DNA of 64,000 nucleotides from Kaistella pullorum (lineage in GTDB: Bacteria; Bacteroidota; Bacteroidia; Flavobacteriales; Weeksellaceae). Below the pieces are notes generated by a model, which made no database searches, was not told where the DNA came from, and saw only the letters and a list, made by a program, of their open reading frames with translations. Shown here piece by piece: positions 19,557 to 48,005 of this stretch. Position 1 is the stretch's first letter. The number at the start of each line of letters is the position of its first letter. Both the position numbers and the translations under genes were made by a program. Location of the stretch: contig NZ_JACSPS010000003.1 of assembly GCF_014837035.1 (NCBI RefSeq), positions 248,001 through 312,000 on the forward strand, read 5' to 3'.

Positions 19557-22500
19557 TTATTTAATGACTTTCTTAACGGTAATTTTACTTTTCTGGTCAA
19601 TCTTAAGAATGTAGGTGCCGTTTACTATCGCAGAAAAATCGAGGCGCTCAACAGTGCTGTTGGGTTCCACACGGCGAACCATTCGCCCAGCGGCATCAAA
19701 AATCTCAACTGAGGAGACAGGATCTCTCTGCGCCTTTACTACAAAATCCTGTCCGTCACGGTACACCACGACATCTTCTTTCACCGCTGCATCGGTAGCC
19801 AGCACGCCACCAGGCTTGTAAACGATCTCGAACCTTCCCGTACTCTCCCCCCCCTGCGCCATAAAGGTGTAGGCGCCCTCGCTTAGGTTGGTGATGGCGC
19901 CGGTCTGGTTGTCTTTGAGGTAAATGGGCTGGCTGGTGGCAAAAATACCTTCTTTTCTGCCGAGCGCAATTTTATTAATTCCCGCTGTGTAATTTCGAGT
20001 TCCAATATCTAAAATATCATCAATGTTAAATTTATTCCGACCATTAATCACTACCTTCTCTGTTCCCGCGTAGGTGAATAATGCATCAGAGGTGCCGGTT
20101 TCCTTACTGTCATCTTTTGAAAATTCATTATTACCACTATCAAAATATACGATTGCATTGCTAATGACCATATCTGATGGTGTCGTTAGCTGCAACCAGT
20201 ACCTGTCATCTGTAATAACGGTCTGCTTTCTTCCGTAAAAATTAGAATCTGTCTGATCTTTGGTTCGCTGTGTATTTTTAAAATTCAGAACCCCGGCACC
20301 TATCGCTCTCACCATGAATCCCTGACCTACTTTTACAATATGGTTCGGAATTTTAGAGCCAGCCGGACTCGCGGGATTATCCGGATCTACGTCCTTATTG
20401 CCAGGCGCCGGATTACCCACTCCGTACGTACCCGTAGCGGCATTAAAAATTGCATAGGCTGCCCCTTTATATTCAGAACCCTGCTGAACGGTAATTGCAT
20501 TGGCAAGATTATCCCAGAACTCAAAGTTTTCGCTTATCTGGCCTGGAGAATCATCGTATAGTTTTTTAATATCAATATTTGACGGATAGGGATTACCAAT
20601 CAGGTTATAGCCTGTAGTAGGAGTACCAGAATTCGCCAGCGTGTAGGTAAAGTCCCCATTCATTGGAACCCCTGTGAAATGAGCATAAATCTTTCCGCCG
20701 GGTGGAACTACCGAGGCTGAAGGCTCTTTCACAGCGAGACCCCGACCTCTAATATAAGCACCTGAGGACGCATAGAATTTATTATTCACTTCATTATGGT
20801 AAAGCGTGAACTGAGACGAACTTAAAACACCGGTCGTCTTGTTTTCGTAGATGTTTGTTTTAAGGTTTGAATCAACCAAAGGTGAAATAAGGTAGTTGTA
20901 CTGGTTGTTGTCTTTGATGGTGATTTCCCGATGTGCTGTAATTTCTCCGGAATTGGCTGCGGTTGTATTTAGCTGCAGTAGATTAGCATCGGAAGATAAT
21001 ATCAGCGCCCGCTTGTCACCAAGGTTTTTAACAAAATCCTGCACCGTAAGGTTCCCTTCGATATCGAGAGAACCGCCGGGCTGTATGGTAAGATTTTTGG
21101 CGTGGGCCTCAGTACTGACAGAAATTACCGGCTTAACAGTACTGCTCGGAATATTTACGCAGTGGTCTGCAGTGGGAACGGTGTTTCCTTCCCAATTGGA
21201 TGCCGTATTCCAGTTTGTGGTGGTTCCGCTCCAGTCGGTATCACCTTTTGTCACTACTACGGTTTGTGTGGATGGACAGCCGGCTGCGGTTTTGGCAGAG
21301 ACGGTGTATGTGGTTGTAGAAGCAGGAGATGCATAAAGCGTCGTTGCTTGAGTGCCATTATACGCAACCGTTTTCGCTGCATCTCTCCACAAACCGGTTG
21401 TAGGTGACCATGTAACAGTAGTTGGCAAAGGATTGGTACCGGTAATATTGATGTTGTCAACTGCCCAATACCAATCATTAAATGCGTGATATCTAAACCG
21501 AACCTGCACATAAGGTAAGCCTTTGTAAGCATTCAAATTAATGGTTTCCAATGCAAAGTTATTCCTTGCTCCCACCAAGGTAGTATAGTGTCTGAGTTGT
21601 TTCCAGTTCACACCATCGGTTGTAATTTCAACATATGCATCACTACTGGTAAACTGTCTAAAATAATGATAAAAGGTAAATGTGATATTTGTACTCGCAG
21701 AGTTATAATCTAAGAAACTCAACGGTGGCGAAATAAGGCTGGTTTCCATTTCATCATTGAAATATCCTGAGAGATTACTATCCACCATCACAAAAGAACT
21801 GTTATCATTGCTGTGAAATACTTCATTACCGCCCCAATCTGTATCGCCATCATTGTATATATGCCATTGTGCGGCATCTGTATCGGTACCTGTTATAGTT
21901 GTGCTGGTAATCCATGGATTTGTTATCGGATCAAAAGTTTCATTTAAGATTGTTTCCGGGATAATACCACCACTTACCACACTGATCTGGCTCGCTTCAT
22001 TCGAACAAGTGATGGCGTTCACCGGATCCATAACTATCAACGTAGGTGCAGGTGTGACTGCGACGGTAACATAAGTGTATTTTCTACATCCGGTTGGACT
22101 GGTTGCCACAACCCAATACGTTGTTGACTGAGTTACCGTTTGATTTTTTGTAGCACCCGTACCTAAGTCCGTTTGATAGGTTTGCGTCGTTTCATCCCAA
22201 CCCAGATACCAATGGTAAGAATAACTTGGATCGCTGCTGTTGGCAGTAAGGGTTATAGCTTCATTTGCGCAGACCAAAGTTTTACTTGCAGAAACGGTTA
22301 CAGGTGTACACGTCGTACATGTTCCTGCAACAAAGAAAACCATATCATATCCGTTAGTATTTTGCGCCCACGTTACACCATTGTTAGGACTAAATTGAGC
22401 AACTGCTCCCGTTGTTCCGGTAGAAGTTGCGCGCCAATAAATATTTGCATTATCACCACTGTTTGTCATTGTCACCTCTAACCAGTAAGTTCCGGCGGGA

Positions 22501-24830: not shown

Positions 24831-24877
24831 TGTGTGTTTGTGTTTCGCGCTCCGAAAGATGCCCCTAAGTGCGCACT

Positions 24878-25865: not shown

Positions 25866-25891
25866 TATAGAACTTCGCGGTTAAGTTTTTT

Positions 25892-28800
25892 TTATCGGAT
25901 AATTTTCTTACTCACCACGTCAAAACCGCGCTCAATCCTCAGAAAATACACCCCATTAGGCAACGGGTTTGCATCTATTAAAGTTTCAGCAGCATTTGGC
26001 TTCGCCGAATATACAAGCCTGCCGCTGCTGTCGAACAGTTGAAGTCCGGTGATATTTCTTTTGTCAGATCTGATATGGAAATCATTTTTGTCGCGGTATA
26101 CGACAACCGATTCTTTCAGGCCTGCATCCGTTGCGAGCGTGCCACCCGGTTTATAAACAATTTCAAATCTGCCGGTACTTTCGCCTGCTTCAGCCGCAAA
26201 GCTGTAGGCGGATTCGCTTAGGTTGGTGATAGCGCTTGTCAATTTATCTTTGAGATAAACAGGCTGCGCAGAGCTGAAAATACCATCCGTACCCGCCAGT
26301 TCGATGCGGTACTCGCCTGTCGTGAAATGGCGTGTACCGAGAGGCACCACATCCTCATCGGTAAATATACTGCGTCCGTTGATATTTACTTTCCTGTCAT
26401 CCACCCGTGAATACAGTTCGTCTGATCCGCCCAGCGAGGCCGCGTCATCACTGCTGAAACCATTGGTTCCACCTACAAAATACACTACAGCCATATCAGA
26501 ACGCAGACTGGTTGGCGTGATCATATTAAGCCAGAATCTGTCAAAGTTTACGGAATCCCCGGGAGTACGTCCAAAGTACGCGGAACCGTCTTTATCTGTC
26601 CGCACGGTATTGTTAAATATAAGTGCCTGATTATTTACCCGTGTCTTTACCATAAAGCCCTGGCCCATTTTTATATAGCGCGTAGGACGTACTGTACCAG
26701 CCATATCTTTATCGCCGGTAGCCAGCGTTCCGGTTCCTTCACCCGGCGGCGTGGTCGCGTGAAAAACGGCATAGGCCTGCCCTTCATACTTGTCTCCCAA
26801 CTGCACGGTCTGGCTGTTCGCGCGGTTGTCCCACAAGTTAAAAGAATTGCTGATGTTGCCACTCGCGCTATTGATATGATAAAACTGGCTTAAATCCATA
26901 TTAGACGGATATGGATTACCCACAAGATTATAGCCGCGGTTTATATTCGAGGGATTGGAGTTTACAAGGTTATACGTAAATGCACCGTTGGTTGGATAGC
27001 CAGTAAAAGTAGCGGTCACCGAAGTCGCCTTTTGGTCCGGTAAAGCACTCAATTTTGGTTCTTTCACTGCCAGTGCACGACCTTTGATATACGCACCGGT
27101 GGAATTATAGAAGAAATTGTTGGCTTCATTGTGGTACAGCACGTATTCAATTCCGGGATAAACAGTTTTTAAGAACTGCCCTTCGAGCGGTGAAATGAGG
27201 TAATTGTACTGTTGCCGCCCGGCGGAAACATTCACCGTACGTTTGGCGGTAATGTTTCCGACATTGACGGTATTGCCCTCGTTTACCTGGATGAGGCTGG
27301 CATCGGATTCTATGACAACGTTTTCGGCGATTCCCTTATTAACCAATGCATCTTTAATGCTTAATGAACCTTCACCTTCAATCTTTAGTTTGCCGGTATT
27401 TTCAACATAAACCTCTTTTGCGAATGCCTGGGTAAAAGGTTCAATCCTAACCGGCGTCTTTATATACACACAGTCTGCGCTGGTAGGTACCACGCCGACA
27501 GGTTTCCATGTGTTTGAATTCCACTTGTCAGTGGCAGCATTCCAGACTTTGTTCTTATTTTCTATTATGACGCTGCCCGTCGCGGTGGTTCCATTGCTAA
27601 GTGATGCAGTAGCATTGATTGTCCAGTTGGCAGTAGTTTCTTTCTGATTCATCGAAGGATTCATATATACCGTTGTGGTAGGAGCATTGTTATATGGAAT
27701 CGTTGCTGCTGCATCTGTATAAACATCAATCGGGGCACTCGTTGTCCATGCAAAGGTGGTTGTAAGTGGCTTCACTCCAAAAAATTCAATGTCATCGATT
27801 GCTACGCCATCTTTCCACGCAGCGTAGTAGCGAAATCTGAATTTTAAATTTGAGCTCTGATAGGAGGACATATCAATTGTTTTGAGCTCAAACTGAGTAC
27901 CGAACCCCACATCTTTTGTATATCTTATAACTTCGTTCCATGTACTTCCGCCAGTATTTACTTCTAGGGCTACGTAATCGGAGGCATCCGCCACGTCGTC
28001 ATTTGAGTATTTTGAAAAATACATCCTGAATGAAAGTGTGAGACTTGAATAACCGAGCGTATTTACTGTTGGCGAAACGAGTGCATTACTAATCGTATAA
28101 CTATTATTATTAGCATCAGCACCCACGTCTGATGTTGCCATTGCAAAGCTGTTGCCGGCAGTACCGGAAGCAATCGCAGGAAACCACACTTTCTCATTTG
28201 GCTTAAATATACTTTGCCGGGTTTGCCATTTTGTTTTATTATCGATAGTAGTTGTATTTGGTCTTAATATTTCCTGAGTAAACTTTCCTAAGCCATTCTC
28301 AAAATATTCCTCGACAAAGTACACTGTTTCATCCTGGCCGCTCGCAGAAATCTTTACGGTCGAATTACTGCCGCATGAAGTGGGTGCAGCCGGTGTAAAT
28401 GTGATCTCAGGAACCGGCCTCACTACAGCACGGACAGGAGTGCGTATCAAAGATTCGCAGCTACCGTTCCAGGCGGCAACGTAAAACACAGTGGTGCTAT
28501 TCACTGTCGTTGTATATGCCGATTTACCGCTTACGACATTTGTTTCCGCCAGTGGAGTACCACCGGTAAGGGAACTGTACCAATGCACCTTGGTTGAAGA
28601 TGCGGATGGTACTGCCTCAAATGTTACAGTGCCGGGTCCTGTCCTTATCTGATTTGAAACTGAAGTTATGGTAGCGAAGCAGTTTGCAACGACAGTAAAT
28701 GAATAATCTTCGGTCTCGCCCGAATAGTTAATATTCCCACAAGGACCAATAGAAGTACTTCCGTCACTACTGTTCATCCGTAAACGAATAACATAGTTGC

Positions 28801-29956
28801 CCGGATTGGCGCCGGCCGGAATAATAAATCCAAATGTTGTGGAAATTATACTCGTACCAGCTGACGTATATACTTCCTCCGTAGCGACATCGAAGCTTCC
28901 ATCCCGGTTCCAGTCAACCCACGCGCGTACCATTCCACGAAACGCATTTTCAACATATAAATTGACGCCGTTACCCTGGGCCTGTATGCTTTTATTTGAG
29001 CTGCCTGTGAAATCCTGGTAACCCTTAGGATTTGTAGAAAACGTAGAAGTTTGTTCCGTATCGTGCATAGTACCGAGAAACTTTACCATTTTTATATAGT
29101 TAGTCCCAGCCTCTGCAGTTCCTATATCAGGACGACAGTATAGCGTGGTATAAGTCACAACCGACGAGTACGAATTTTGACCTGAGCAAGTAATCCTTCT
29201 GCGATAGTAAGAAACACCTGGAGAAGATATGGCGGTGATGACTGCACTGGCGCCCGTTGCACCCACAATATCAATCCATGGCGCGCCTGTACTTGATGCA
29301 TATTGCCACTGGTAACTTAGACCGGTGGCGTTCGTGTCACCTGTAACGGTTGCAGTGAATGTAGATGAGGGTGTTCCGGTGGAAGAGCTTAAGACTGTTG
29401 TTCCGCCCGCGGGTGCGCCCGAACACGCCGCCGCAACTTTAACCCGATAATCACGCGTCTGTCCCCAAGCATCACCGGTACAGGGACTATTATTATAATA
29501 ATCGTTATTCGTGCTTAGATTATACTGCCACAAAACACGCATCCGATATGTTCCCTGGGCAGAAGCACTTGGAATTGAAACATTAAAAGAAACTGTATTC
29601 GGAGCTGATGAGCTACTTACAGATCCTACCCATCGTCCTACAAATTCTCCAGTGTCTGTAAAGTCCCCATCATTATTAAAATCAATCCAAACTACTGCGA
29701 AATGTCTCCCATTACCGTTCGCTGCAAGGACAAACGTATAGGTCCCGCCAGGATATACAGTAGGAACAACAACGTCGTTGTGAAAATAATAAGACAAATT
29801 TCCACCTCCAGTCGAGTGATTAAGTCCAGGCGCTAATTCGCCGACTAACTTCACCATCGTGATAGGATCGACATTTCTTGTTCCAGGTGTGCAGTACGTT
29901 TGCGCCTGCATTATAAAAAAAGAAAATATGAATATTATCGAATAAAAATTTTTCAT
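25892..29956 (-). CDS. Giant T9SS-secreted GEVED-domain protein B
   Basis: A 1354-residue protein with signal peptide ending MQAQ (residue 19). Two GEVED domains occur at about 22-175 (AVVWIDFNNDGDFTDTGEF) and 268-422 (RAWVDWNRDGSFDVATEE, GETEDYSFTVV), each followed by an Ig-like domain. A choice-of-anchor-J-like jelly roll lies at about 548-722. The shared module runs from about 800 to the end (GYNLVGNPYPSNMDLS, MGQGFMVK, ESTGRFEIVYKPGG) with the T9SS sorting domain (LQLFDSSGRLVYSAKPN, NGVYFLRIERGFDVVSKKII). Cysteine pairs fit extracytoplasmic folding. It has its own terminator and a long leader with a small ORF. Likely a cell-surface adhesin; the ligand is unknown. Confidence 0.9.
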   Translation of the reverse strand: MKNFYSIIFIFSFFIMQAQTYCTPGTRNVDPITMVKLVGELAPGLNHSTGGGNLSYYFHNDVVVPTVYPGGTYTFVLAANGNGRHFAVVWIDFNNDGDFTDTGEFVGRWVGSVSSSSAPNTVSFNVSIPSASAQGTYRMRVLWQYNLSTNNDYYNNSPCTGDAWGQTRDYRVKVAAACSGAPAGGTTVLSSSTGTPSSTFTATVTGDTNATGLSYQWQYASSTGAPWIDIVGATGASAVITAISSPGVSYYRRRITCSGQNSYSSVVTYTTLYCRPDIGTAEAGTNYIKMVKFLGTMHDTEQTSTFSTNPKGYQDFTGSSNKSIQAQGNGVNLYVENAFRGMVRAWVDWNRDGSFDVATEEVYTSAGTSIISTTFGFIIPAGANPGNYVIRLRMNSSDGSTSIGPCGNINYSGETEDYSFTVVANCFATITSVSNQIRTGPGTVTFEAVPSASSTKVHWYSSLTGGTPLAETNVVSGKSAYTTTVNSTTVFYVAAWNGSCESLIRTPVRAVVRPVPEITFTPAAPTSCGSNSTVKISASGQDETVYFVEEYFENGLGKFTQEILRPNTTTIDNKTKWQTRQSIFKPNEKVWFPAIASGTAGNSFAMATSDVGADANNNSYTISNALVSPTVNTLGYSSLTLSFRMYFSKYSNDDVADASDYVALEVNTGGSTWNEVIRYTKDVGFGTQFELKTIDMSSYQSSNLKFRFRYYAAWKDGVAIDDIEFFGVKPLTTTFAWTTSAPIDVYTDAAATIPYNNAPTTTVYMNPSMNQKETTANWTINATASLSNGTTATGSVIIENKNKVWNAATDKWNSNTWKPVGVVPTSADCVYIKTPVRIEPFTQAFAKEVYVENTGKLKIEGEGSLSIKDALVNKGIAENVVIESDASLIQVNEGNTVNVGNITAKRTVNVSAGRQQYNYLISPLEGQFLKTVYPGIEYVLYHNEANNFFYNSTGAYIKGRALAVKEPKLSALPDQKATSVTATFTGYPTNGAFTYNLVNSNPSNINRGYNLVGNPYPSNMDLSQFYHINSASGNISNSFNLWDNRANSQTVQLGDKYEGQAYAVFHATTPPGEGTGTLATGDKDMAGTVRPTRYIKMGQGFMVKTRVNNQALIFNNTVRTDKDGSAYFGRTPGDSVNFDRFWLNMITPTSLRSDMAVVYFVGGTNGFSSDDAASLGGSDELYSRVDDRKVNINGRSIFTDEDVVPLGTRHFTTGEYRIELAGTDGIFSSAQPVYLKDKLTSAITNLSESAYSFAAEAGESTGRFEIVYKPGGTLATDAGLKESVVVYRDKNDFHIRSDKRNITGLQLFDSSGRLVYSAKPNAAETLIDANPLPNGVYFLRIERGFDVVSKKIIR

Positions 29957-30050
29957 TGTGTATTATCGTTGAACAGGAAGATTCCGCTTTGACCGACGGA
30001 TCGGTGCAGCAGAGGCTTTCTTATACGGTATTTGTGTTTTGTAATGAAAA

Positions 30051-30155
30051 TTAAGCACGACCGATCAGGTGATTGGCGTTGAGTGAAGACTTACCGCAAA
30101 CTGCGCACATGCACAGGTTCATCATGCGGGACCAGGAGAGTAAATGATTATTCAT
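30051..30155 (-). CDS. Possible 34-residue leader peptide upstream of giant B
   Basis: ATG-to-TAA frame inside the 5' leader of giant B. It encodes a short peptide with CMCAVCG in its middle and NHLIGRA at its end. The last codons contain GATCGGT, which is complementary to ACCGATC 55 bases further on. That second site can instead form a hairpin ACCGA-tccg-TCGGT. Competing pairings of this kind are seen in attenuators. The frame could be fortuitous. Confidence 0.35.
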   Translation of the reverse strand: MNNHLLSWSRMMNLCMCAVCGKSSLNANHLIGRA

Positions 30156-30201
30156 TTCGTGTGTTTAAGTTCGATTGATAATCATCATTTGTGTGTTGGT
30201 G

Positions 30202-30209
30202 CAAATATA
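30202..30209 (-). promoter_or_regulatory. Candidate -7 box for giant B
   Basis: TATATTTG on the minus strand, about 245 bases before the ATG at 29956. It implies a leader of about 240 bases that contains the small ORF. No clear -33 box. The stretch from here to 30494 shows no gene. Confidence 0.45.
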
Positions 30210-30494
30210 AGTAATAAAACATATACCATGATAATTTGTACTGGAAATCAGGTTTTTGCAGTTCATCAGCTTTAAAAGAAAGCTACGCTGCGAGTGAAGC
30301 TGAGAGTGGTAAAATAGACATTATGCTAACGTGCTATATTAAATGAAATTCCCAACCTTAAACGGCTATAAAACATTAAACAAACCCATTACATTTTTTT
30401 TCTAGTTCAGATCGTTGCGCTTCGCCCCGGGAATTTAATAAATCAGTCCGCTAGAAATATGAGTGGGTAATCCATTTGACATTATATTCACGAC

Positions 30495-30532
30495 TAAAAA
30501 AAAGTCCCGGTTCAAATGAAACCAGGACTTTA
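30495..30532 (-). terminator. Rho-independent terminator of giant C
   Basis: On the minus strand AAGTCCTGGTTT, five-base loop, GAACCGGGACTT, then a run of T. It is located 13 bases after the stop of giant C. Confidence 0.88.
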
Positions 30533-30545
30533 ATAAGTTACACCA

Positions 30546-34754: not shown

Positions 34755-34916
34755 GTTTTGGTTTAATGTTTTCTTTACACACAAAACATTTTTTCAAAAC
34801 CCGACAAGCCTTTTCCTGCCCGAGTATTTCACTCAGGTAAAACTGCCATAATCGTAAAGTTCTTTAATGTTTTGTGTTTACTTAGCAAAGAAGCCCCCTA
34901 ATCCGCTAAGCGAGTG

Positions 34917-35327: not shown

Positions 35328-38300
35328 TTATTTTACAATCTTTCGTGAAATTATTTCGCCGTTGCGAACTATTTTAAGAATATAGATACCTTTAAGAAGT
35401 TCTTGCGTATCTATTCTGACACTGCGGGAGTTGGGCTTTAGATGTCCTGTGAGTCTACCGCTCAGGTCGTAGATAAAGACTTCCGAAACTTCCTTAATTG
35501 ATTTTAACCAATAACATTCACCATCACGGTAAACCAATAAACCTGAATCTTCACTTTCTGCCGTCAGTACCCGCTCTTCACGGTAAACAATCTGGAATCT
35601 TCCTTCAGTTTCACCTTTTTCTGCATCAAATACATAAGGATTTTCTGAAAGATTGGTGAGGCTTCCGGTCACAGTATCTTTTAAAAAGATGTGCTGGCCG
35701 TTTGCAAAGATGCCTTCCGTTTTATCAAGTACAAGCTTATACTGCCCCTCGGCAAAGTGCGTACTACCCAGCAGCACCGCGTCGGCATCCGAAAATTCAC
35801 GTCGTCCATTAATAGATACTTTTTCGGTCCCCGCGAAAGTGTAAACAACCTCTGAACCGCCCATCACGGGTGAATCGTCCGCAGCAAAGCCGTTATTGCC
35901 CTCCTCAAAATAGACCACGGCTATGTTTGAAGAAAGTCCGCCCGGTGAAACCATATTGAGCCAGAAACGGTTCATTTCCGGGGCAGACTTACCGAAAAAT
36001 CCTATTCCGCTATTTGCCGTACGGATACTGTTACTGAAGACCAGTGTTTTAGACGCTGGGTATACCCGTGCCATAAATCCCTGCGCCATCGGTACGTAAC
36101 GTGTGGGAAAAAGCTGCGTCGATGTACCCGGATCACCCTGGGCTTTTGTGGGCGTAAGACTTACTGCATTAAATTGTGCGTAAGCCAATCCGTCATAACC
36201 CGAACCTTCCTGAGCGTACCTGTTATTGGCTGTGCTGTCCCAAAAATAAAAGGTTGAACTCAAACCACTGGAATCACCACCATTTAAATTGTAGAATGCC
36301 ACCAAGTCAATATTGGATGGGTACGGATTTCCTATCAGATTATACCCTCGCACCATAGCAGACGGAAAAGTAACCCCGGGCGCACTGTTCACCGCATTGA
36401 AAATTAACGGCGTTCCTCCCACAGAAATCCCGTTTACCGGCACACCCTTAAAGACTGCTTTCACTTCTGTAACCGAATTGGCAACCTGAGAATAAACAGG
36501 CTCTTTCACAGCCAGTGCCCGTCCGGGGATATAGGCTCCAGTGGATTCATAGAAATGGTTATTTGATTGGTTATGATAGAGCACGTGAGGAGGAGTGATA
36601 CCACTGTAAATCCCGTTTTTTAGGTTCACGCCCTCGACCGGTGATATGACGAAGTTGTACTGGTTTCGGTCCGTTTGTGGCGGAATCGGCACGGAAAGAT
36701 TGATTTTTCTTTCCGCCGTAAATGTTCCTGTACCACTGTTTACACCGCCATCATTTAATTGCACGAGACCCGCACCACTTTCCACGATGATTTCGCCGTC
36801 ATTTATAATGAAATCGGTGACAGTAAACGATGTATTTTCTTTCACAATCAGTTTGCCGCTACTGTTTATTTCGCACTGGCAAACCTGTAGATCGGCGTTC
36901 GCTGCAGTTTCAAAAATACCATTGATTACTGCCCTGTCTGTTGGCTGAGGAGCTGAAGGCAACCATGATGCTCCATTCCACACTTTAGGTTTTAATCCCG
37001 AACTGGTAATGCGGATGTCATCAATAATCCAGGATTCATTGACGGCATTATTCTGTGCGGTAACCCGTACCAGCAAAGAATTTACCTGAGGAATTCCCGT
37101 GATTTCCAACGCACTGCATTTCGTTCCGGCTTCGGAAGATTTAAAATAGGTCAGGTTCTGATTGCTTTGATAAAGACGCATTGCGTCACCGGTTCTCTCA
37201 CTGTTAAAACTCCACGCTACATTCATATCATTGGAGACGATTTTTGCCTGAGGATACCAGTTAGCTCCCCCGTCGGGACTGATTTCAACCAAGACAAAAT
37301 CGATTTTGTCTGCATCTAAAATATCCGGCCCCGGATCCTGATTCTTGCTGTCCATTCCGTTGCTTTTACTTCCAAGAGAAAAGCCTGCAACTTTTAGACT
37401 TACCGAAACGTCAGTGTACGCAGAAGTATTCACCGGACCGAAAGTAAACCTGATCCCTGAAGCTGTTTCACCCACGGGATCAGCCCCTTGGATCCGGTAA
37501 CCGCGTGAACCATGCGAGAACAGATTATTGACTTTCGGCGCGTCATTGCTTCCACTTTTGCCGGAAGAAAAATCGGAAGAGGTGCCGGGCGGAATGGCAC
37601 CAATGTTTTCTTTAGTGAAAATCAATTCATTGTCAGAAGGTAACGTTTCAAAATCCTGCTGCGCAATAATGATTTCACCGGGTGAACTGCAATACACAGC
37701 GCCGCCGCGGAGGGCAAAAGTAAACGGGTTCGAAGCCTGATCATTGTTGGTAATTGTCACAGTGGCATCTTTTGTCCCAATCGAGGTGGGTTTAAAAATA
37801 ATACTGAACGATACAGACTGATTCTGACTTAAAACAGTATTAGGTGGCGGTGCTCCTGCGACAGAAAACGCAGTTGCGTCCGCCCCCGAGATCGAAACTG
37901 AATTTATAGTAAGCGGCGCACCGCCCAGATTTAATATTTCGAAGGATTTTGTCTGGCTGTTGCCGATATTCTGCGTTGCGAAGAGCGTATTATTCAGCCC
38001 GCTCGGCATGCTGCTGCCATTAGCGATTGAAGATCCGTTGCCCAACACTTTTATCTTTGCCAGGCCTGGCGTTACGGAGCCCGTGAGAGAAACAGTTTTG
38101 TCCACCGCGGACGTTGAGCTCAGTGTCACCGTTCCGGTATAGGTGCCTACAGGTAAACCGTCTTTTAGACGGACATATATAGTTTTGTCAGTTACGGCAC
38201 CGCTCTGGTTTTTGCTCAGAACCACCGTCGTCCACGGCGCCACATTGTTATTGTCATAGGCTTGGTTGGTCGAAATTTCCCAGTTAGCCGATGCAGAGAC

Positions 38301-40139
38301 GGTGATGGCAGCCGCAAGATTGTTTCCGTTCACCTTAAAACTCTGCAGCGCAGATGGACCCTGTGCAAAAGCATACGCAAATCCACTCAGGGAAGTTTTA
38401 TCAATGTTTATTACCGGCTGGGTCACAACTGCTTTTACCTGAAATGTATAAAGTGGTGTATCCGGATCGTCACTGGCGATTTGCACAGTTTCCGTGTGGG
38501 TTCCGGGCACGGTACTGTTGAATTTTACTTTGAAGGAGGTATTGGAAAAAGCGTTCACACTGGCGGACGCGGGTTGTGCGGAAACAGTAAAATCTTGAGC
38601 TCCGCTGAGCACGGTTACGGCGGGATTGGTCAGATTTAATGTGGCGGAACCTGCATTTCGGATTTCAAAAGTTCTTTCAATATCGGTTCCTCCTATCATT
38701 GTTCCGAAATCAGTGCCGTCAGCTGTCGTGGGCGTCGAGTCACCATTCGGGATGGTGATTGAATTTCCCTGTATGGTGATATTAGGCTGCGGGGTACCGG
38801 TGAAACAAGTCCAGGTGACATCATCAATTTTTATCTGAGCACCAATTGTTCTAAGTTCAAACTGAATATTTCCGGGCAGATTTACATCGATAGCATAATT
38901 CTGAACATTATCACTCGAAGGATTTACGGTAATGTCCGATCCTACTTGCATTCCATTAACCCAGACTTGTATAGTTCGAGAATTTGAATTAGCAAAAGCT
39001 TTCACGAAGTTGAAACTGAAATTTCCTACACCGTTTGATGATGTTGGACCCGCTAGGCTGCCATTTCCGTTATAAGTAATCGCTTTGCCGTTGAGCATCT
39101 GATCAGTTCTGGCATTTACCGCACTCCAGGTTCCTCCACTTCCTGTCCATGACCGGGAAAGGTATTGGTCGGGGTTTGGTGTAGTGGGGATGCTTGCAAA
39201 ATCTTCACTATAATTACAAGGTGGTGACAGTGTTGTACAACTCGCCTGCGGTTCACCAATAAGTTTATAATCAATGTCGCTTCCAGAATTTGTGTAAGAC
39301 CATATTTTAAAATAGTAGGTGGTGGCTGGTGCGAGAGAAGACGATAAAAAATTTTGGATGCCCTGACTTACATTTTGGACGCCCGCGCCATTAGCAACAG
39401 GATTACCGTCAACCGGATCTGTGATGACTGAATATGACGTACTACTCCATTTTACCAGATATCCATCCGGCGGTATGGTACCTGCTGCATCTGCCCATGA
39501 TAGCTGAATAGAGTTGCTGTTGCTGGCTGAACAGCTGAAGGATGAAGGAAAACCACTGGGCTCCGGCTTCTTTACGGTCGATAAAACGGTTCCGTTAAAT
39601 GCAAAATCATTAATACTAAATGTACCACCACCAGCAGAAGCTCCCCATCCGTAAACCCTAAAGGTAAGAGCCGCTGTAATATTCTGAAATATGGGAGCGC
39701 TTAAACTAATAGTTCCACCAGCCGCTGAGGGCGTACCTAAGTCCGATGTAAAACTATCTAAGCTTGAGCGGATTGCAAACGATACAGGACCAGTGCCGGA
39801 AGACTGTGCAGTATAAGCAAAACCACTGAAATTTATTTTAAAACCAGGATTGGGCGTCAGAGTGAACTCAAAATAATCATTGGCATCCAACAAGGTACTG
39901 TTCCAACCTGAGGCGTTATATCTGTCATTCGCATTACTTGCTGATATACCACTTCCCCGGCCAATTCCGGAAACTGTGATATTTGCCGCAACAGTCTGTC
40001 CGGCGGTGTAGGGATTGGCCGTGCTCGGATTTGTTCCTGTTATCGGATTACTGAATAGAATCTGGCCGCTGAAGTTCATAGAAAACATCAAACTAAAGAA
40101 TGCACTAAACCTTAAAATACCGCGTAAATATTTTTTCAT
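35328..40139 (-). CDS. Giant T9SS-secreted choice-of-anchor D protein D
   Basis: A 1603-residue protein from ATG 40139 (an upstream in-frame ATG at 40160 would place seven residues before the signal peptide). Signal peptide ends NFSGQ. Then come a jelly-roll-like domain (about 25-190), an FN3-like domain (about 200-310), a second beta-sandwich, and two choice-of-anchor-D (ASPM/SPD-2/Hydin-like) domains at about 450-575 and 693-808 (each with the pattern GT/FEI-N-G-L-I-V). A choice-of-anchor-J-like region follows (about 820-1045). The shared module runs from about 1050 (RGYNLIGNPYPSNIDLV, MAQGFMARVYP, GETEGRFQIVYREE) to the T9SS sorting domain (VFIYDLSGRLTGHLKPN, ISRKIVK). It is head-to-head with the 40466 gene. 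Confidence 0.9.
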   Translation of the reverse strand: MKKYLRGILRFSAFFSLMFSMNFSGQILFSNPITGTNPSTANPYTAGQTVAANITVSGIGRGSGISASNANDRYNASGWNSTLLDANDYFEFTLTPNPGFKINFSGFAYTAQSSGTGPVSFAIRSSLDSFTSDLGTPSAAGGTISLSAPIFQNITAALTFRVYGWGASAGGGTFSINDFAFNGTVLSTVKKPEPSGFPSSFSCSASNSNSIQLSWADAAGTIPPDGYLVKWSSTSYSVITDPVDGNPVANGAGVQNVSQGIQNFLSSSLAPATTYYFKIWSYTNSGSDIDYKLIGEPQASCTTLSPPCNYSEDFASIPTTPNPDQYLSRSWTGSGGTWSAVNARTDQMLNGKAITYNGNGSLAGPTSSNGVGNFSFNFVKAFANSNSRTIQVWVNGMQVGSDITVNPSSDNVQNYAIDVNLPGNIQFELRTIGAQIKIDDVTWTCFTGTPQPNITIQGNSITIPNGDSTPTTADGTDFGTMIGGTDIERTFEIRNAGSATLNLTNPAVTVLSGAQDFTVSAQPASASVNAFSNTSFKVKFNSTVPGTHTETVQIASDDPDTPLYTFQVKAVVTQPVINIDKTSLSGFAYAFAQGPSALQSFKVNGNNLAAAITVSASANWEISTNQAYDNNNVAPWTTVVLSKNQSGAVTDKTIYVRLKDGLPVGTYTGTVTLSSTSAVDKTVSLTGSVTPGLAKIKVLGNGSSIANGSSMPSGLNNTLFATQNIGNSQTKSFEILNLGGAPLTINSVSISGADATAFSVAGAPPPNTVLSQNQSVSFSIIFKPTSIGTKDATVTITNNDQASNPFTFALRGGAVYCSSPGEIIIAQQDFETLPSDNELIFTKENIGAIPPGTSSDFSSGKSGSNDAPKVNNLFSHGSRGYRIQGADPVGETASGIRFTFGPVNTSAYTDVSVSLKVAGFSLGSKSNGMDSKNQDPGPDILDADKIDFVLVEISPDGGANWYPQAKIVSNDMNVAWSFNSERTGDAMRLYQSNQNLTYFKSSEAGTKCSALEITGIPQVNSLLVRVTAQNNAVNESWIIDDIRITSSGLKPKVWNGASWLPSAPQPTDRAVINGIFETAANADLQVCQCEINSSGKLIVKENTSFTVTDFIINDGEIIVESGAGLVQLNDGGVNSGTGTFTAERKINLSVPIPPQTDRNQYNFVISPVEGVNLKNGIYSGITPPHVLYHNQSNNHFYESTGAYIPGRALAVKEPVYSQVANSVTEVKAVFKGVPVNGISVGGTPLIFNAVNSAPGVTFPSAMVRGYNLIGNPYPSNIDLVAFYNLNGGDSSGLSSTFYFWDSTANNRYAQEGSGYDGLAYAQFNAVSLTPTKAQGDPGTSTQLFPTRYVPMAQGFMARVYPASKTLVFSNSIRTANSGIGFFGKSAPEMNRFWLNMVSPGGLSSNIAVVYFEEGNNGFAADDSPVMGGSEVVYTFAGTEKVSINGRREFSDADAVLLGSTHFAEGQYKLVLDKTEGIFANGQHIFLKDTVTGSLTNLSENPYVFDAEKGETEGRFQIVYREERVLTAESEDSGLLVYRDGECYWLKSIKEVSEVFIYDLSGRLTGHLKPNSRSVRIDTQELLKGIYILKIVRNGEIISRKIVK

Positions 40140-40157
40140 CTCATTTGTGTTTACTAT

Positions 40158-40165
40158 CAAAATTA
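40158..40165 (-). promoter_or_regulatory. Candidate -7 box for giant D
   Basis: TAATTTTG on the minus strand 18 bases before the ATG at 40139 fits TAnnTTTG. No -33 box seen. Confidence 0.4.
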
Positions 40166-40441
40166 CAAAATCGCGGCACCAGCTTTTACCGTTTTTACAC
40201 GGTTACTTTCATGATGAATAACGGTTACAGACAAACGACCAAGTGCAGAAAAATACCGATTAATACAGCAACCCATTGTTGTGATTAAACAGAGCGCTTT
40301 ACCCCCTATGTTTTAATAGATCTGAAATGATACTTTATCTCTTAATACGATAGCTTACCTATACCCAAAAACCATTAGAATGTATTCAATGAAAATCATT
40401 AGGATAGACACGTTAAATCACCCGTATATTTTTAAAAATCA

Positions 40442-40449
40442 TATCTTTG
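40442..40449 (+). promoter_or_regulatory. Candidate -7 box for the 40466-40794 unit
   Basis: TATCTTTG, the same octamer as in front of the paralogous small gene at 19507, lies 16 bases before the ATG at 40466. A TACCCAAAA half-site at 40372-40380 matches the left half of the palindromes at 49063 and 53507, without the right half. Confidence 0.5.
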
Positions 40450-40465
40450 CGCAAAGTATTATTGT

Positions 40466-40741: not shown

Positions 40742-40793
40742 CTGTATTGCAAAAATCCCTGTTTCCATTTTTCCCAACCATTTTACATCCGTT

Positions 40794-43700
40794 ATGAAGA
40801 AAATACTATTTGTTGTTCTCGCTTTTTTGTCGGCACTCTGTTTTTCACAGGCACTTTCCGGCACATATATCATCGGCAAGTCCCAGCCCGCGCCTTTCAA
40901 CACGATTACAGCGGCAATTAACCGAATCAACACAGTGGGTGTAAGTGGCCCAGTAACCTTCCTGCTGAATGATGACAATTACAACAATACGACAGGTGAG
41001 AGTTTTCCAATTAAAATATTGCAGTTTGCCGGTACAAGTTCCTCAAATACCTTGCGCATCAAGCCAAATACAGGAAAGGATGTCACCGTTTCCGCTGTAA
41101 ACATCAACGATTATACGGGTGTCCCTGCCGTATTTCACCTCGAAGGTGCGGATAATATTATCATAGACGGCTCAAACGTAAACGGTGGAACCTCGCGAAA
41201 TCTTACGATAAGTAACAATGACGGAGTAGAATATGTAGCCAGAACTGCCGTTTGGATCTCCTCAACAGGAACTAATAATGCCAGTAACGTACGCATCAGC
41301 CACACCAGACTGCAGGTGCAGAACAGAAACCAACCGGGCATTCAGTTGTCGGGCGTATTTGTAGGAAACAATGCAATTGGGAGTAATAATCAGCTGGGTG
41401 GCGGCATGGCTACAGCAGCACATAACAGTCTCACCTTTAGTAGTAATGAATTCATCAATGTAAGGCAAGGAATTATAGTGAACGGCAGTGACAATAGCAG
41501 CCTCAAAACATCCAATATCACCATAAGCGGTAACCAGATGGGAAGTAGCATTGACGCGCAGAAACCCAATGTACCTGTACAGATTTCGAACGCCGCGAAT
41601 GTCACTATCGCGGATAACCGTTTAACCGGTTTTGCAAATACAAGCAGTTCAAACAGTCAGCTTGGTCTTTATGTAGAAAACGGAAGCCAGATCTTTATCA
41701 GAAAAAATATTTTTGAGGATTTCAAGACAACCGGATCTTACCGGGGACGCGTCATCAGTATCGGCGGATCGAGCAGTCAGGTTGAAGTAACGGAGAATAA
41801 GATCAGTAACGTCCGCAATGAGCAGGGCGGCCCCATTTATGGCATTGAAGTTAATATTTCAGCAGCCTCGACAGGTGTTTCTCTGGCAAACAATTTCATC
41901 GGTAATATTGCGAGTAACGGAGGTTCTACTAATTCTGCCCACGGCATCTACATCACCAATGGTACCGGAACAAAAATTTACCATAATACGGTAGCCATGA
42001 ACACGCCACAGGTCGGATGGTCATCTGCACTCTATATTGCAGGCGGCTCCGGCTTTGATGTCCGCAATAACATATTTACGAACAGTTCTACAACGCAAAG
42101 CTACGCGCTTTACTCAGAGGTTGCTGCAAATGCTTTTACAGCGATTAATTATAATAATTACCGTGCGCATACTGTTGGATTTTTAGGAGGACAGCAGACA
42201 ACCCTCGCAAACTGGCGAAATGCCACCGGGAAAGACCAAAATTCACTGAATGTTCTACCTGCCTATACTGGGATTGATGACCTTCACCTGCTACCTGCAA
42301 ATAATCCCGAGTTAGATAACAAAGGGCAGGCATTACCTGCTGTAACTATAGACATTGACCAACAGGCTCGTAGCACCACATCTCCGGATATGGGCGCTGA
42401 CGAATTTTCGGTACCGGCTACAGAACCAACTTCTCCAGCCTCTAAAGTAACTTTCAGAAATGTTACCGCCTCAGGTTTTACGATAGACTGGACCATTCCC
42501 ATCAAAGCAAACAGCTTGGTGGTAATGAGTGCAGTGACTGAGGTAAATTCAGCACCGACTGACGGCACAGATTATACGGCCAACCCTATTTTCGGATCTG
42601 GATCGCAGACCGGAACGGGAAATTTTGTCGTGTATTCGGGTAGCGGTACTTCGGTGGATGTATCGAATCTAAATCCCAATACCCTCTACCACGTTGCGGT
42701 CTTTACATTTAACGGAGCTGGACCAACATCTAATTATCGAATTACATCACCAGCACGTGGCGAGCAGCGGACGCTCAATGCGACCCTGGGCTGGCAGATC
42801 CTGAGCATGAACAATTTGCACAGGATTGATTTTGACACCACTGTGAGCGGCGTGAATCTAGACCGGTTCGTTGGAAGCGGTTTTGACAGAACCCCGGTTA
42901 CAGGTAAACTGAATTCCAATTCGTGGTCAGTGATGGGTCTTGCCGACGGCAATTTACCTTTAGGTGGTGTTAATACCAACCCCGGTTTTGGACGCGGCAG
43001 CAGCAACGGTGGTGTGTCCGCGGGAGGGATCTATGCCTATAATGTTGCGACAAACAATGCGGCCCTTGGGGTACAACCTACGGCCAATGACTTCAATTCC
43101 GGCTCCATGACGCTGAGAATGCAAAACCAAACGTCAGCACCCATCACATCGCTGAGCATCGGTTATAAAGTGTACATCTACAATGACCAGCCTGGCTCGT
43201 CCAGCTTCAATTTCAGTCACTCGGCAGACAACAGCACATTCACGAACGTGAGCCAACTCAATGTTACTTCACCTGCCACAGCAGACGAAGCACCTTCGTG
43301 GAAAGCAAGTTACCGGGTGGTTACGGTGACAGGTCTTAATATAAACCCTAACGAATATTATTATTTTAAATGGACAGGTAACACGGTAACAGCGGGAGCG
43401 GCAGACGAATTTGCACTTGACGACATCACTGTTTCAGCTAATCCAGTTAGTAATTTTGCTAATTTTCAGGGTGTGGCGCAGGATTTCGTAGTTCATGGCA
43501 ACGCAGACATGGACGGTAATCTTACAGTGAACGGCCCTCTCACTCTCAGCGCAGGTAAACTTTCAATAAAAAGCAATACGCTTACCATCGGCGGCACAGT
43601 AAACAACACCGTTTCCGGAGGTCTCCGCGGCAGCAGTGCATCTAATCTTACGATTACAGGCACGGGCACAAAAACAATAAGCCTTGACCAAACAACTCAG

Positions 43701-46700
43701 GGAACAACAAACCTTTTGAATAATTTTTCCGTACCGTTTTCGGCCACAAATTCCAATACTGTTGACATCTTCGGCAACATTTCAGTTAACGGGTCACTGA
43801 GTGTAGGTCTTAGCCAGCAGGTAAATCTTGGAACAAACGTACTTTCCGGTAATCTTTCATCCATCAGCATAATTGGCGAACTTCTCACACAGAATACGTC
43901 AGCAACACCCTTCCCTTCCGGAAAAACATTTACAGGAACCGGTACGCTGACCATGAATGCACCAGCGACGGCCCAAACCTTAGTACCCGGAACGTACACC
44001 AACGTCAGTCTAAGATCTGCCGCAGGGACCAACGCAAGCGGAAATCTTACTGTAAATGGGATCTTAAGCCTTCCCAATGCGAATCCTTCAGCAACTAAAG
44101 GCTCATTAGATATGGGAACTTACACCCTTACGATGGGCCCTGAAGCAACAAACGCAGGAGTTGGAGATGTAACCGGTATCATTACGCGAAACAGTTTTGC
44201 CTTTAATGTTCTTTACACCTTCGGGCATCCTGATTCATCAATACTTTTTACCAACTCTGGAACACTTCCAAGCTCAATGAGTGCCAAGGTAATGATTGGC
44301 ACCGCTCCTAACTGGCGTGCAGGTGCCATACAAAGATACTATGACATCATACAAACGGGTGCACAAAATACAAAAGCAGTGATCCGTCAACATTACTTGG
44401 ACTCTGAGCTTAACGGAAACAGTGAACCGAAACTGGTATACTGGGCTAAGACTGAAACTGCCGAAGTCGAGCAAGGCAGATCCAATTTTAATCCGACTGA
44501 AAATTGGGTTGAAATCAGTAATGCGAATATTGGGCTTTACTTTCAAAGCACATTCGGAAAAGTATTTATTACACTGGATGAATATTTAGAAGGTACAGGA
44601 ACGGATCCCCTTGTTCTTGTCTGGAATGGCTCGGTGAGCGACTCCTGGATTACGGCGGCCAACTGGACACCTAACGCAACGCCTTCCCAATCTAGAACTT
44701 TGTACATTCCCGATGCCAGAACTACGGTTAATAACCCGACTTTATTAGAGAAGGGTTTCTCACTGGCAAAAAACCTGATCATTCAGCCGGGCGGCGTCGT
44801 AAACAGTCCAAATACCGCGACACTTCAAATATTTGGAGGAGAAGGAGCCTGGATCAATAACGGAACGTTCAATTCAGGTTCTGGTGATGCTAAAGTTGTT
44901 TTTATGTCAGCAGATGCAACAATGGCCGGAAGCACCGAATTCAACAATCTTGAAGTTGCAGCAAGCGCCTCTCTGCGCGCACTGGAAAACAATTACGCAA
45001 AAATTAACGGAGCGTTTACGAACGGAGGAACGATTTTGTTTGGCCTGACGCCCAACACCGTAGAGTTTTCAGGAACCAATCAGACGATGCCGGTTCCCAA
45101 TGGTGCATCCTTCGCAGCCTATTACAACCTTGTATTTTCAGGAACAGGAACAGTAGTTCCTGCTGATCTGAACGTGCGTGGAAATCTGACGTTTAATAAC
45201 ACAGTAGGTCTGGGTGGAACAACAATCCGACTTACAGGCGAAGAAAACCAGGTGATCAGCGGCAGCTCCGACATCCTATTTAACGATCTCGTTGTCAATA
45301 AGCCTAAAAACAATGTCATTTTAAATAAAGACATCACCATTGGTGGTACACTGAATCTCACCAAAGGCGTCGTGGTTCTCGGTTCCAATAATCTTACTTT
45401 GAGTGACAAAGCGGTACAGGGAACATTTGATATTCCGGCAATGATAGCGGCAGATGGCGCGGGGATGGTCAGAAGACCGTTCACAAGCATTGGCGAATAC
45501 TTCTTCCCTGTTGGAGATCTTTCCGCTACACCAGGGTACAGCCCAATAAGAGTGAAAATCACGTCAGGGACTTTTATACCCGGGGCGTTGCTTAATGTTT
45601 CATTGGCAGATGACATTCATCCTGACAATCACAGCCATGAAAACTATATCAGCAGGTATTGGAAAATTCAACCGGAAGGAATGACAAACACTGTCGCGAC
45701 CGTGACGGCAAATTATCTGACAACCGAATTGCTTGTACCGGAAAATACGATGGCCGCAGCACAGCTGATTGGAAATTTCGACCAGCAAACCAATCCGTGG
45801 AAACGTTTTGCACCCTTAGAGAACCTAACACTTACCGCCGCAGGGGCTGCACTGCCTAGCGGAGAAATATCTTACTTCACAGGAATTAAAGGCGGACCTT
45901 ATATGGTTGAGGTCATTGGTGGTGGAAACTATTGTGAAGGTCAGGAAGCGCTGTTGTCAGCGCAGGTTACCGGCGGCGATATGCCATTCACTTATCAATG
46001 GTCCGATGGTCTGGGAACCGGATCTACCGCAACTGCACCTGCAGCCACAGCCGGAGGGCCGCGCACCTATTCGCTTACTGTGAAAGATGCCAACGGTATT
46101 GCAACGGATAACTCAGCTACGGTAACGATATTACCCGGCGTAAAAGCGGGCACTATATCCATTCCCAATACCGTCGCGTGCGCCTCATATCCACCAGATG
46201 ATATTACGCTCAGCGGAAACAATGAAAGTGTTCTTTACTGGCAAAAATCTTATTTTGAGGATTTCAGTAATTACGAACGAATCGACAGCAACTCCACAAA
46301 GCTTATTGGCCAAATGGCCGGAATAATTACCGGTAAGACATATTTTAGGGCCGTAATAGGAAACGCCAACTGTGGCTTGGCGTATACAAATACTATTATC
46401 GTAGACACAAAAACATCGACTTTTACTGACACGGGTTGGACCAACGGTATACCTGATGTACGCACAGAAGCTGTAATCCTGAATGACCTGATTACCGCTA
46501 ATGACCTGCTTGCATGTCGGCTTACCGTGGCCAATAATGCAAAAGTAACAGTATCGGCCGGAAAAAACATCCTGCTAACGGGCTCGCTGAACGTATCGCC
46601 GGGAGCTACCCTTACAATGGAAAATAATACAAATCTCGTCCAGACAGAAGATGAGGTGAATCACGGTATTATTGCCGTGAAGAGGAACAGTTCGCCACTT

Positions 46701-48005
46701 TACAGACTCGACTACACAATGTGGGGATCCCCGCTGTATGGTAACCAAACGCTGCAGCAGTTTTCTCCTCAAACACTTTCAGACCGTTTTTATATATACA
46801 ATACGGCTACAAACGTGTTCAATAATGTGACGCCTTCAAATACATACTTCAGTCCGGGACAGGCATTTTTGATCAGGATGCGTAATAACCATGTATCCTA
46901 CAGCACTACTACCCCACCTCAAATATGGACAGGCGTTTTTTCCGGCACACCCACGAACGGGCGTGTGAAGACTCCGCTAAGCGGTGCTGGTCAAGGCTTT
47001 AATATGATTGCAAATCCGTATGCCTCTACCATAAAGGCAGATGACCTGCTCAGCACGAACCAGAACGAGATAGAGGGTACACTTTATTTCTGGAGGCGGC
47101 GAAACAACACACCCGACCCGGGCATTACAACCGCTTATTATGCAACATATACTACAGCAGGTGGAACAGCCGTGCCAAGTTCTGACCCTAATATACCAGC
47201 AGAAAAACCGAATGGAATAATACAAGTGGGACAGGGATTCTTAGTACAGAAAAAAGCGGGTGTTACCGGACAGCTTAATTTTAATAATGCAATGCGACTT
47301 GCGGATAACGGAAACCAATTCTTCCGCTCTACCGCTGCTGAGGACAGAAGCAGGATTTGGCTAAATGTGACGAATACAGCCGGGACCTTTGGTCAAACGC
47401 TTATTGCGTATATGGATTCGGCAGACAATGGTGTTGACCGGACAGACGGTAAATATCTTGGCGATGGTACTACCGCGCTTACCTCGTGGGTGAATGATTC
47501 CGAATATATCATCCAGGGTCGCGCACCGTTCCAGACATCGGATATTGTACCGCTTCATTTCCGGACGCTCACAGCCAGTATTTACACGATTACTTTAGCT
47601 GAAAAAGACGGAATTTTCGCTAATGGACAGGCTGTTTACATAAAGGACAAACAGAACGGAACCACGCATAATCTGCAGCAGTCGCCCTACAGTTTCAGTT
47701 CAGAAGCAGGTGCGTACAGTACGCGGTTTGAAATCGTTTATTCGAACGGTGTGTTGTCGGCCAACGATTCGGCGGCGGGCAATGGAATTTTATTATTTAA
47801 ACAAAACGGAGAAGCAGTAATCAGATCTTCTGAGATGAATTTAGAACTTGTGGAAGTGTACGACATGAACGGAAGACTTGTAGCAAATGCAAGGAACATC
47901 CATGCAAGAGAGTTGCGTTTACCATTAGGTCAGGTCAATCAGGTTTTGATCTTTAGAATCACTACTGCCGATGGCGTTACCATTAGTAAGAAGATGGTGA
48001 ACTGA
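40794..48005 (+). CDS. Giant T9SS-secreted beta-helix protein E
   Basis: A 2403-residue protein, the largest in the window. Signal peptide ends ALCFSQ (residue 19). A right-handed beta-helix spans about residues 90-530, with asparagine-rich rungs, the NNIFTNSS motif and the closing SPDMGADEF typical of choice-of-anchor-Q proteins. An FN3-like domain follows at about 547-645, then a jelly roll and a long series of repeats of the type NLTVNGPLTLSAGKL and SGNLTVNGILSLPN. An Ig/PKD-like domain is near 1700-1770. From about 1878 to the end is a more divergent copy of the shared module (GQGFNMIANPYASTIK, VGQGFLVQKK, RFEIVYSNG) with a T9SS sorting domain (VEVYDMNGRLVANAR, TISKKMVN). Only giant on the plus strand. 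Confidence 0.9.
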   Translation: MKKILFVVLAFLSALCFSQALSGTYIIGKSQPAPFNTITAAINRINTVGVSGPVTFLLNDDNYNNTTGESFPIKILQFAGTSSSNTLRIKPNTGKDVTVSAVNINDYTGVPAVFHLEGADNIIIDGSNVNGGTSRNLTISNNDGVEYVARTAVWISSTGTNNASNVRISHTRLQVQNRNQPGIQLSGVFVGNNAIGSNNQLGGGMATAAHNSLTFSSNEFINVRQGIIVNGSDNSSLKTSNITISGNQMGSSIDAQKPNVPVQISNAANVTIADNRLTGFANTSSSNSQLGLYVENGSQIFIRKNIFEDFKTTGSYRGRVISIGGSSSQVEVTENKISNVRNEQGGPIYGIEVNISAASTGVSLANNFIGNIASNGGSTNSAHGIYITNGTGTKIYHNTVAMNTPQVGWSSALYIAGGSGFDVRNNIFTNSSTTQSYALYSEVAANAFTAINYNNYRAHTVGFLGGQQTTLANWRNATGKDQNSLNVLPAYTGIDDLHLLPANNPELDNKGQALPAVTIDIDQQARSTTSPDMGADEFSVPATEPTSPASKVTFRNVTASGFTIDWTIPIKANSLVVMSAVTEVNSAPTDGTDYTANPIFGSGSQTGTGNFVVYSGSGTSVDVSNLNPNTLYHVAVFTFNGAGPTSNYRITSPARGEQRTLNATLGWQILSMNNLHRIDFDTTVSGVNLDRFVGSGFDRTPVTGKLNSNSWSVMGLADGNLPLGGVNTNPGFGRGSSNGGVSAGGIYAYNVATNNAALGVQPTANDFNSGSMTLRMQNQTSAPITSLSIGYKVYIYNDQPGSSSFNFSHSADNSTFTNVSQLNVTSPATADEAPSWKASYRVVTVTGLNINPNEYYYFKWTGNTVTAGAADEFALDDITVSANPVSNFANFQGVAQDFVVHGNADMDGNLTVNGPLTLSAGKLSIKSNTLTIGGTVNNTVSGGLRGSSASNLTITGTGTKTISLDQTTQGTTNLLNNFSVPFSATNSNTVDIFGNISVNGSLSVGLSQQVNLGTNVLSGNLSSISIIGELLTQNTSATPFPSGKTFTGTGTLTMNAPATAQTLVPGTYTNVSLRSAAGTNASGNLTVNGILSLPNANPSATKGSLDMGTYTLTMGPEATNAGVGDVTGIITRNSFAFNVLYTFGHPDSSILFTNSGTLPSSMSAKVMIGTAPNWRAGAIQRYYDIIQTGAQNTKAVIRQHYLDSELNGNSEPKLVYWAKTETAEVEQGRSNFNPTENWVEISNANIGLYFQSTFGKVFITLDEYLEGTGTDPLVLVWNGSVSDSWITAANWTPNATPSQSRTLYIPDARTTVNNPTLLEKGFSLAKNLIIQPGGVVNSPNTATLQIFGGEGAWINNGTFNSGSGDAKVVFMSADATMAGSTEFNNLEVAASASLRALENNYAKINGAFTNGGTILFGLTPNTVEFSGTNQTMPVPNGASFAAYYNLVFSGTGTVVPADLNVRGNLTFNNTVGLGGTTIRLTGEENQVISGSSDILFNDLVVNKPKNNVILNKDITIGGTLNLTKGVVVLGSNNLTLSDKAVQGTFDIPAMIAADGAGMVRRPFTSIGEYFFPVGDLSATPGYSPIRVKITSGTFIPGALLNVSLADDIHPDNHSHENYISRYWKIQPEGMTNTVATVTANYLTTELLVPENTMAAAQLIGNFDQQTNPWKRFAPLENLTLTAAGAALPSGEISYFTGIKGGPYMVEVIGGGNYCEGQEALLSAQVTGGDMPFTYQWSDGLGTGSTATAPAATAGGPRTYSLTVKDANGIATDNSATVTILPGVKAGTISIPNTVACASYPPDDITLSGNNESVLYWQKSYFEDFSNYERIDSNSTKLIGQMAGIITGKTYFRAVIGNANCGLAYTNTIIVDTKTSTFTDTGWTNGIPDVRTEAVILNDLITANDLLACRLTVANNAKVTVSAGKNILLTGSLNVSPGATLTMENNTNLVQTEDEVNHGIIAVKRNSSPLYRLDYTMWGSPLYGNQTLQQFSPQTLSDRFYIYNTATNVFNNVTPSNTYFSPGQAFLIRMRNNHVSYSTTTPPQIWTGVFSGTPTNGRVKTPLSGAGQGFNMIANPYASTIKADDLLSTNQNEIEGTLYFWRRRNNTPDPGITTAYYATYTTAGGTAVPSSDPNIPAEKPNGIIQVGQGFLVQKKAGVTGQLNFNNAMRLADNGNQFFRSTAAEDRSRIWLNVTNTAGTFGQTLIAYMDSADNGVDRTDGKYLGDGTTALTSWVNDSEYIIQGRAPFQTSDIVPLHFRTLTASIYTITLAEKDGIFANGQAVYIKDKQNGTTHNLQQSPYSFSSEAGAYSTRFEIVYSNGVLSANDSAAGNGILLFKQNGEAVIRSSEMNLELVEVYDMNGRLVANARNIHARELRLPLGQVNQVLIFRITTADGVTISKKMVN

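Follow-up and report, generated by a model that had tools for sequence, protein, structure and literature searches.

A fixed array of RemA/RemZ-type T9SS proteins with tail exchange and PID-CTERM-like companions in the genus Kaistella

Introduction

The window analyzed here (64,000 nucleotides of Kaistella pullorum contig NZ_JACSPS010000003.1, positions 248,001 to 312,000) contained five giant genes, P0001 to P0005, whose products differed in their N-terminal parts (heads) and ended in one common C-terminal module (tail). A preliminary description had read this layout as duplication with head swapping, and the module as perhaps a stalk, attachment or polymerisation domain; it had missed the relationship to RemA and RemZ, the fixed position beside pglF–wza–wzc, and two small PID-CTERM-like genes. 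The questions addressed were what the module was, what accompanied the genes at their site, and how heads and tails had come to be combined.

Five giant proteins and their common module

The five ORFs were open over the following coordinates:

19557..24830, minus strand: P0001, 1757-aa T9SS adhesin-like protein with fn3 and Ig_7 in the head
25892..29956, minus strand: P0002, 1354 aa, head with two GEVED and Ig_7
30546..34784, minus strand: P0003, 1412-aa ORF with Big_9, PKD_6 and Ig_7 in the head
35328..40160, minus strand: P0004, 1610-aa ORF, head with fn3 and choice-of-anchor-D/ASH-type Ig domains
40794..48005, plus strand: P0005, 2403 aa, head at about aa 600–1870

Translation of P0003 and P0004 probably begins about 7–10 codons after the listed TTG, a start implied by the numbering of the preliminary description. 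All-against-all BLASTP and MAFFT alignments gave 511–541 aligned residues at the C-termini of every pair, rather than similarity limited to the last 80 residues, and so bore out the claim of one module common to all five; identity was 41–47% within P0001–P0004 and 25–30% against P0005 (BLASTP E values 1e-35 to 1e-162). The modules (named RemA/RemZ-type from the comparison below) were located as follows:

19560..21242, minus strand: RemA/RemZ-type module of P0001, including type A sorting domain
25895..27553, minus strand: RemA/RemZ-type module of P0002 (structure model with mean pLDDT 90.8)
30549..32213, minus strand: RemA/RemZ-type module of P0003
35331..36992, minus strand: RemA/RemZ-type module of P0004
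46392..48002, plus strand: divergent RemA/RemZ-type module of P0005

The sequence motifs first quoted for the module held exactly or nearly exactly in P0001–P0003, while variants were found in P0004 (AQGFMA and GETEGRFQIVYREE) and P0005 (NPYASTIK and GAYSTRFEIVYSNG). The heads, described earlier as unrelated, were so only in part: P0001 and P0002 also had in common a stretch of about 400 residues preceding the module (961-residue alignment, 37%), and the domain search placed Ig_7 in several of the five heads. A Pfam 'Amnionless' match in the array proteins was disregarded, its score being below the cut-off.

The last ~75 residues of the module were alike to type A and type C T9SS sorting domains (TIGR04183, PF18962 and NF033708), with TIGR04183 over its cut-off in P0001–P0004 and the sorting domain of P0005 at the cut-off of NCBIfam type C, NF033708. 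Plain sorting-domain similarity was nevertheless ruled out, since the common unit spanned ~540 residues, about seven times the length of such a domain; the earlier view of a separate unit far larger than a T9SS tail was thereby upheld. The body was covered by no Pfam or NCBIfam model when 58 diverse members were searched, which gave matches only to the sorting domain plus rare ones to G8 and AIDA stalk.

A structure model from five sequences was poor (pLDDT 55), and a model of the P0002 module from a 110-sequence alignment was used instead (mean pLDDT 90.8, pTM 0.81, almost all beta). It contained a weakly predicted linker (model residues 473–482) directly before the predicted sorting domain (residues 483–555), and the latter matched the RemA sorting domain 8gl6_D (Z 11.8, rmsd 1.6, 73 residues). 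Fold comparison of the whole-module model gave good coverage for the sorting domain only; in the RemA/RemZ structures, the sorting domain alone was well resolved (PMC10994853).

Relationship to RemA and RemZ

A profile was built from 110 modules, of which five came from the window and the others from loci of other genomes, and compared with PDB sequences of Flavobacterium johnsoniae RemZ (residues 574–1112; E 3e-144) and RemA (residues 897–1434; E 2e-136); profile positions 3–539 of 540 were aligned in both matches. P0002 alone matched RemA at E 2.5e-44 (P0002 residues 795–1325 aligned). RemA and RemZ (Fjoh_0803), both T9SS cargo, thus have in common with the array proteins a ~540-residue C-terminal module that includes the sorting domain. 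This whole-length match identifies the array proteins, by homology, as RemA/RemZ-type T9SS surface proteins, and they are probably adhesins. RemA is a gliding adhesin of F. johnsoniae.

RemA carries a SUEL galactose/rhamnose lectin domain in its head, while the domain search found no SUEL lectin domain (PF02140) in any of the five window heads and one in only 1 of 88 heads of relatives, which were very diverse Ig-like assemblies. This absence counts against the adhesin reading and sets the array proteins apart from RemA proper, the mobile gliding lectin. The array proteins further differed from RemA/RemZ in their other head contents and in being encoded by an array of four plus one genes with PID-CTERM-like partners (see below). 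Among the models of the wider machinery, SprA (2039 bits), PorU (1011 bits) and GldJ were over their cut-offs in the genome, and SprB repeats were below theirs. Over-expression of RemA leads to autoaggregation through galactose-containing EPS (PMC8481357), and RemA is part anchored, part mobile and part released (PMC12618676). The suggestion of a polymerisation domain found no support; given the homology to RemA/RemZ, the module body is better read as an adhesin base close to the cell surface.

Genomic site and distribution

The array was bordered on both sides by conserved genes:

13744..16104, minus strand: Wzc/Wzz-like polysaccharide co-polymerase with AAA domain
16123..16917, minus strand: Wza-like polysaccharide export protein
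16954..18948, minus strand: PglF-like nucleotide-sugar dehydratase/epimerase (Polysacc_synt_2), conserved array boundary
48074..49057, plus strand: LplA lipoate ligase, opposite array boundary in 21 species

The genus was sampled with one genome for each of 36 Kaistella species, 33 of which had module genes. An array of one to about nine genes recurred at the same site beside pglF–wza–wzc in 30 of the 36, with pglF or wza seen adjoining the array in 29 of these 30 (in the remaining one, the examined stretch ended first). Four species (G003, G012, G015 and G023) showed the empty site, having lplA and pglF–wza–wzc with no module gene between. The boundary often included pglE-, pglD- and pglC-like genes (aminotransferase, acetyltransferase and sugar transferase; by inspection); most relatives had such genes between array and pglF, while in the window (16954–19556) pglF directly followed a small gene. 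Ten additional single module genes, mostly divergent, were found at other sites, eight of them beside a second wza/wzc pair (~32–40% identity), including the sixth module copy of this genome (C11:207302-208846). Epilithonimonas had the same array layout with three to five genes, and at the family level 63 of the 120 genomes had the module, as did 15 of the 33 genera.

This spread, together with the great diversity of the Ig-like heads, would suit an alternative in which the module is mainly a secretion or folding platform for any large T9SS cargo, the adhesin role not being required and the site merely tolerating large cargo genes. Against it stand two observations: (i) only 6 of the 26 module-profile matches in this genome had the body (the six full modules, five of them in the window), the other 20 being sorting domain only, so that the body is no general export need; and (ii) at two distinct sites the module lay next to wza/wzc, a strong preference of location. 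We regard the platform explanation as distinctly unlikely beside that of RemA/RemZ-type adhesins.

Array content was strongly variable among Kaistella species. Broken or partial module genes, with internal stops, frameshift or truncation, were seen in relatives (G001:C2:348504-349106, G006:C1:2115578-2117181, G026:C5:2094-3598, G031:C1:896596-897582 and G032:C1:543399-543893), indicating turnover through decay besides gain. An invertible or phase-variable array was rejected: long flanking inverted repeats were absent, and there was a single short tandem repeat. A search for RNA elements gave no Rfam match in the window. Three more T9SS proteins with ordinary sorting domains were encoded near the array (49138–51495, 53588–54892 and 59796–62807), one being a reprolysin-like metallopeptidase with fn3 and GEVED and one having a Rax2-like propeller.

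Head and tail exchange

The preliminary description had proposed that common tail DNA could allow recombination between the genes. In the window, the tail DNA had 49–55% nucleotide identity among P0001–P0004 and 40–43% against P0005, with a longest identical run of 24 nt; such highly diverged tails leave recent or easy homologous recombination between the window genes unsupported. Head swapping itself was observed in relatives, where near-identical tails within one genome (92–98% at the DNA level) sat under unrelated or weakly related heads: (i) in G028, the tail DNA of genes 409959 and 418342 agreed at 98.4% of positions along 1447 bp, extending to ~60 bp past the stop codon, under unrelated heads; (ii) a G022 tail pair was 96.1% identical over 1401 bp; and (iii) a G026 tail pair was 92.0% identical over 1454 bp. 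Per-100-residue identity in these pairs was 18–44% in the heads and 85–100% in most of the tail. The pattern in relatives would fit both head replacement and tail conversion.

Across genomes, mean tail identity was 48% within the same genome versus 39% between genomes, and the tail tree needed 72 genome-label changes versus a mean of 92 and a minimum of 86 in 200 shuffles. Among 198 reciprocal-best head pairs between genomes, only 92 kept that status when the tails were compared; because the tails are diverged, noise may account for some of the disagreement. As to the window proteins, the head of P0004 had an orthologue in G020 (100% coverage, 65% identity), and P0005 had an orthologue over its whole length (G001_350431). 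The P0005 head (residues 600–1800) was ~40–70% identical to genes of G018, G030 and G006 that carried another tail lineage, the tails of those pairs being 24–43% identical; the exchange involving P0005 is therefore old. Some heads of relatives (L114, G018 161853; L141, G006 2119425; L155, G026 66266) contained long internal DNA repeats of ~80–95% identity; expansion of repeats is thus another way in which heads lengthen.

PID-CTERM-like small genes and exosortase XrtF

Two small genes accompanied the array:

19244..19507, minus strand: PID-CTERM-like small protein 1, 87 aa, 49 nt downstream of P0001
40466..40741, plus strand: PID-CTERM-like small protein 2, 91 aa, in the P0004–P0005 gap, 52 nt upstream of P0005

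Their products showed a putative signal peptide that ended in AQ, together with an N[PR]F motif, an acidic linker, the sequence PI[DN]DYLPLL, a hydrophobic segment and basic residues; inspection of 27 aligned small proteins pointed to the same traits, namely an apparent signal peptide, a short motif, a putative single membrane helix and a basic C-terminal end. In these apparent traits they resemble the small exported proteins of the PEP-CTERM/exosortase, XrtF (TIGR04128) and PID_CTERM (NF046080) systems. The array small proteins differ from PID_CTERM in that their motif scores fell under the NCBIfam cut-off of 26 (14.2 bits for small protein 1, no score for small protein 2), and they are therefore named PID-CTERM-like. 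Motifs resembling the Bacteroidota promoter element, seen by eye upstream of several array genes and both small genes, suggest separate promoters:

gaps 29957-30545, 34785-35327, 19508-19556 and 40161-40465: TATNTTTGC motifs (by eye)

A profile of the 27 small proteins was run over all 36 genomes and gave 44 matches at E below 1e-6, their strength being biased towards module sites because the profile was derived from ORFs near modules. With a partial G003 match left out, 41 of 43 strong matches lay on the same strand as a module gene and 3′ of it, at a median gap of 109 nt. The remaining two were still within arrays, one being the window copy 5′ of P0005. The small gene was present in 33/33 species with modules versus 0/3 without (Fisher p 1.4e-4, uncorrected for phylogeny), and no equally strong match was found away from arrays or modules in the 36 genomes. 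There was usually one small gene per co-oriented unit, and in G025 both genes had their own copy. In the module-less species G003, a weak match with three stops lay beside lplA (G003:C1:2924521-2924748); given this stop-ridden remnant, G003 may once have had an array. The pairing of small gene and module extended to Chryseobacterium, Epilithonimonas and Empedobacter, and to some Flavobacterium loci with a weaker motif; no recognisable small partner was found for some module subfamilies in Flavobacterium and Epilithonimonas.

These data bear on a second alternative, in which the array would belong to the polysaccharide locus as its diversity island, and adhesin and small genes would be linked to wza/wzc only through exchange of the whole block between strains, without joint function. 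Polysaccharide loci are often exchanged, and the strong variation in array content between species agrees with such an origin; however, the divergent single module genes elsewhere keep both the wza/wzc pair and the small gene, and module and small gene co-occur without exception in the genus. Linkage by block exchange alone is judged improbable.

The XrtF model was over its cut-off in the genome, its cognate relation to the small protein being putative, and the gene after XrtF encoded a 142-aa membrane protein, a gene order resembling Fjoh_1448-1449 of F. johnsoniae. Deletion of xrtF or its neighbour in F. johnsoniae much reduces biofilm and abolishes zorbs, deletion of sprA, porV or porU has the same effect, and the exosortase substrates were left to future research (PMC10936215). 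The presence of XrtF in this genome, together with that phenotype, leads us to propose the small protein as an XrtF substrate. In the literature searched, no coupling of this small gene or of an exosortase-type system to T9SS adhesins was found, and the small gene had not previously been linked to a RemA-type array.

Proposed mechanism

We consider it likely that the locus is, as a whole, an expandable array of RemA/RemZ-type T9SS adhesins that is linked to a polymer, recombines at its tails and has a small companion that may be processed by XrtF. Each adhesin would be exported by Sec and then pass through the SprA translocon by means of its C-terminal sorting domain. PorU, which in T9SS removes such domains, would cleave in the flexible linker of the module, leaving the ~470-residue constant body as a cell-proximal base from which the long exchangeable head (Ig, fn3, GEVED, etc.) would reach outwards, where it may bind a surface, a neighbour or polysaccharide. 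The array would be tied to the Wza/Wzc-type locus probably since the adhesins attach to, or work with, the exported polymer. New head–tail combinations would arise via recombination or gene conversion in the common tail DNA. The small exported PID-CTERM-like membrane protein, one per co-oriented unit, would be processed by exosortase XrtF and may help hold or present the RemA-type adhesins in polymer from the adjoining Wza/Wzc system.

A further-reaching idea, put forward only tentatively, is that adhesins of the RemA/RemZ type need a dedicated XrtF-sorted PID-CTERM-like partner, the exosortase and type IX pathways being joined beside a polysaccharide export locus. If this were true, the XrtF-sorted partner would provide the substrates that explain the impaired biofilm of F. 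johnsoniae lacking xrtF.

Significance

As adhesins, the array proteins are of the known RemA/RemZ type; what is new is the fixed array with tail exchange and its exosortase-substrate-like companion. The module, hitherto unnamed and found in roughly half of the family genomes sampled, is identified by its sequence as the C-terminal region of RemA/RemZ-type adhesins, and a concrete candidate substrate class is named for exosortase XrtF, whose substrates had previously been left open (PMC10936215). The locus also shows how giant surface proteins become diverse at a single fixed site within the genus Kaistella.
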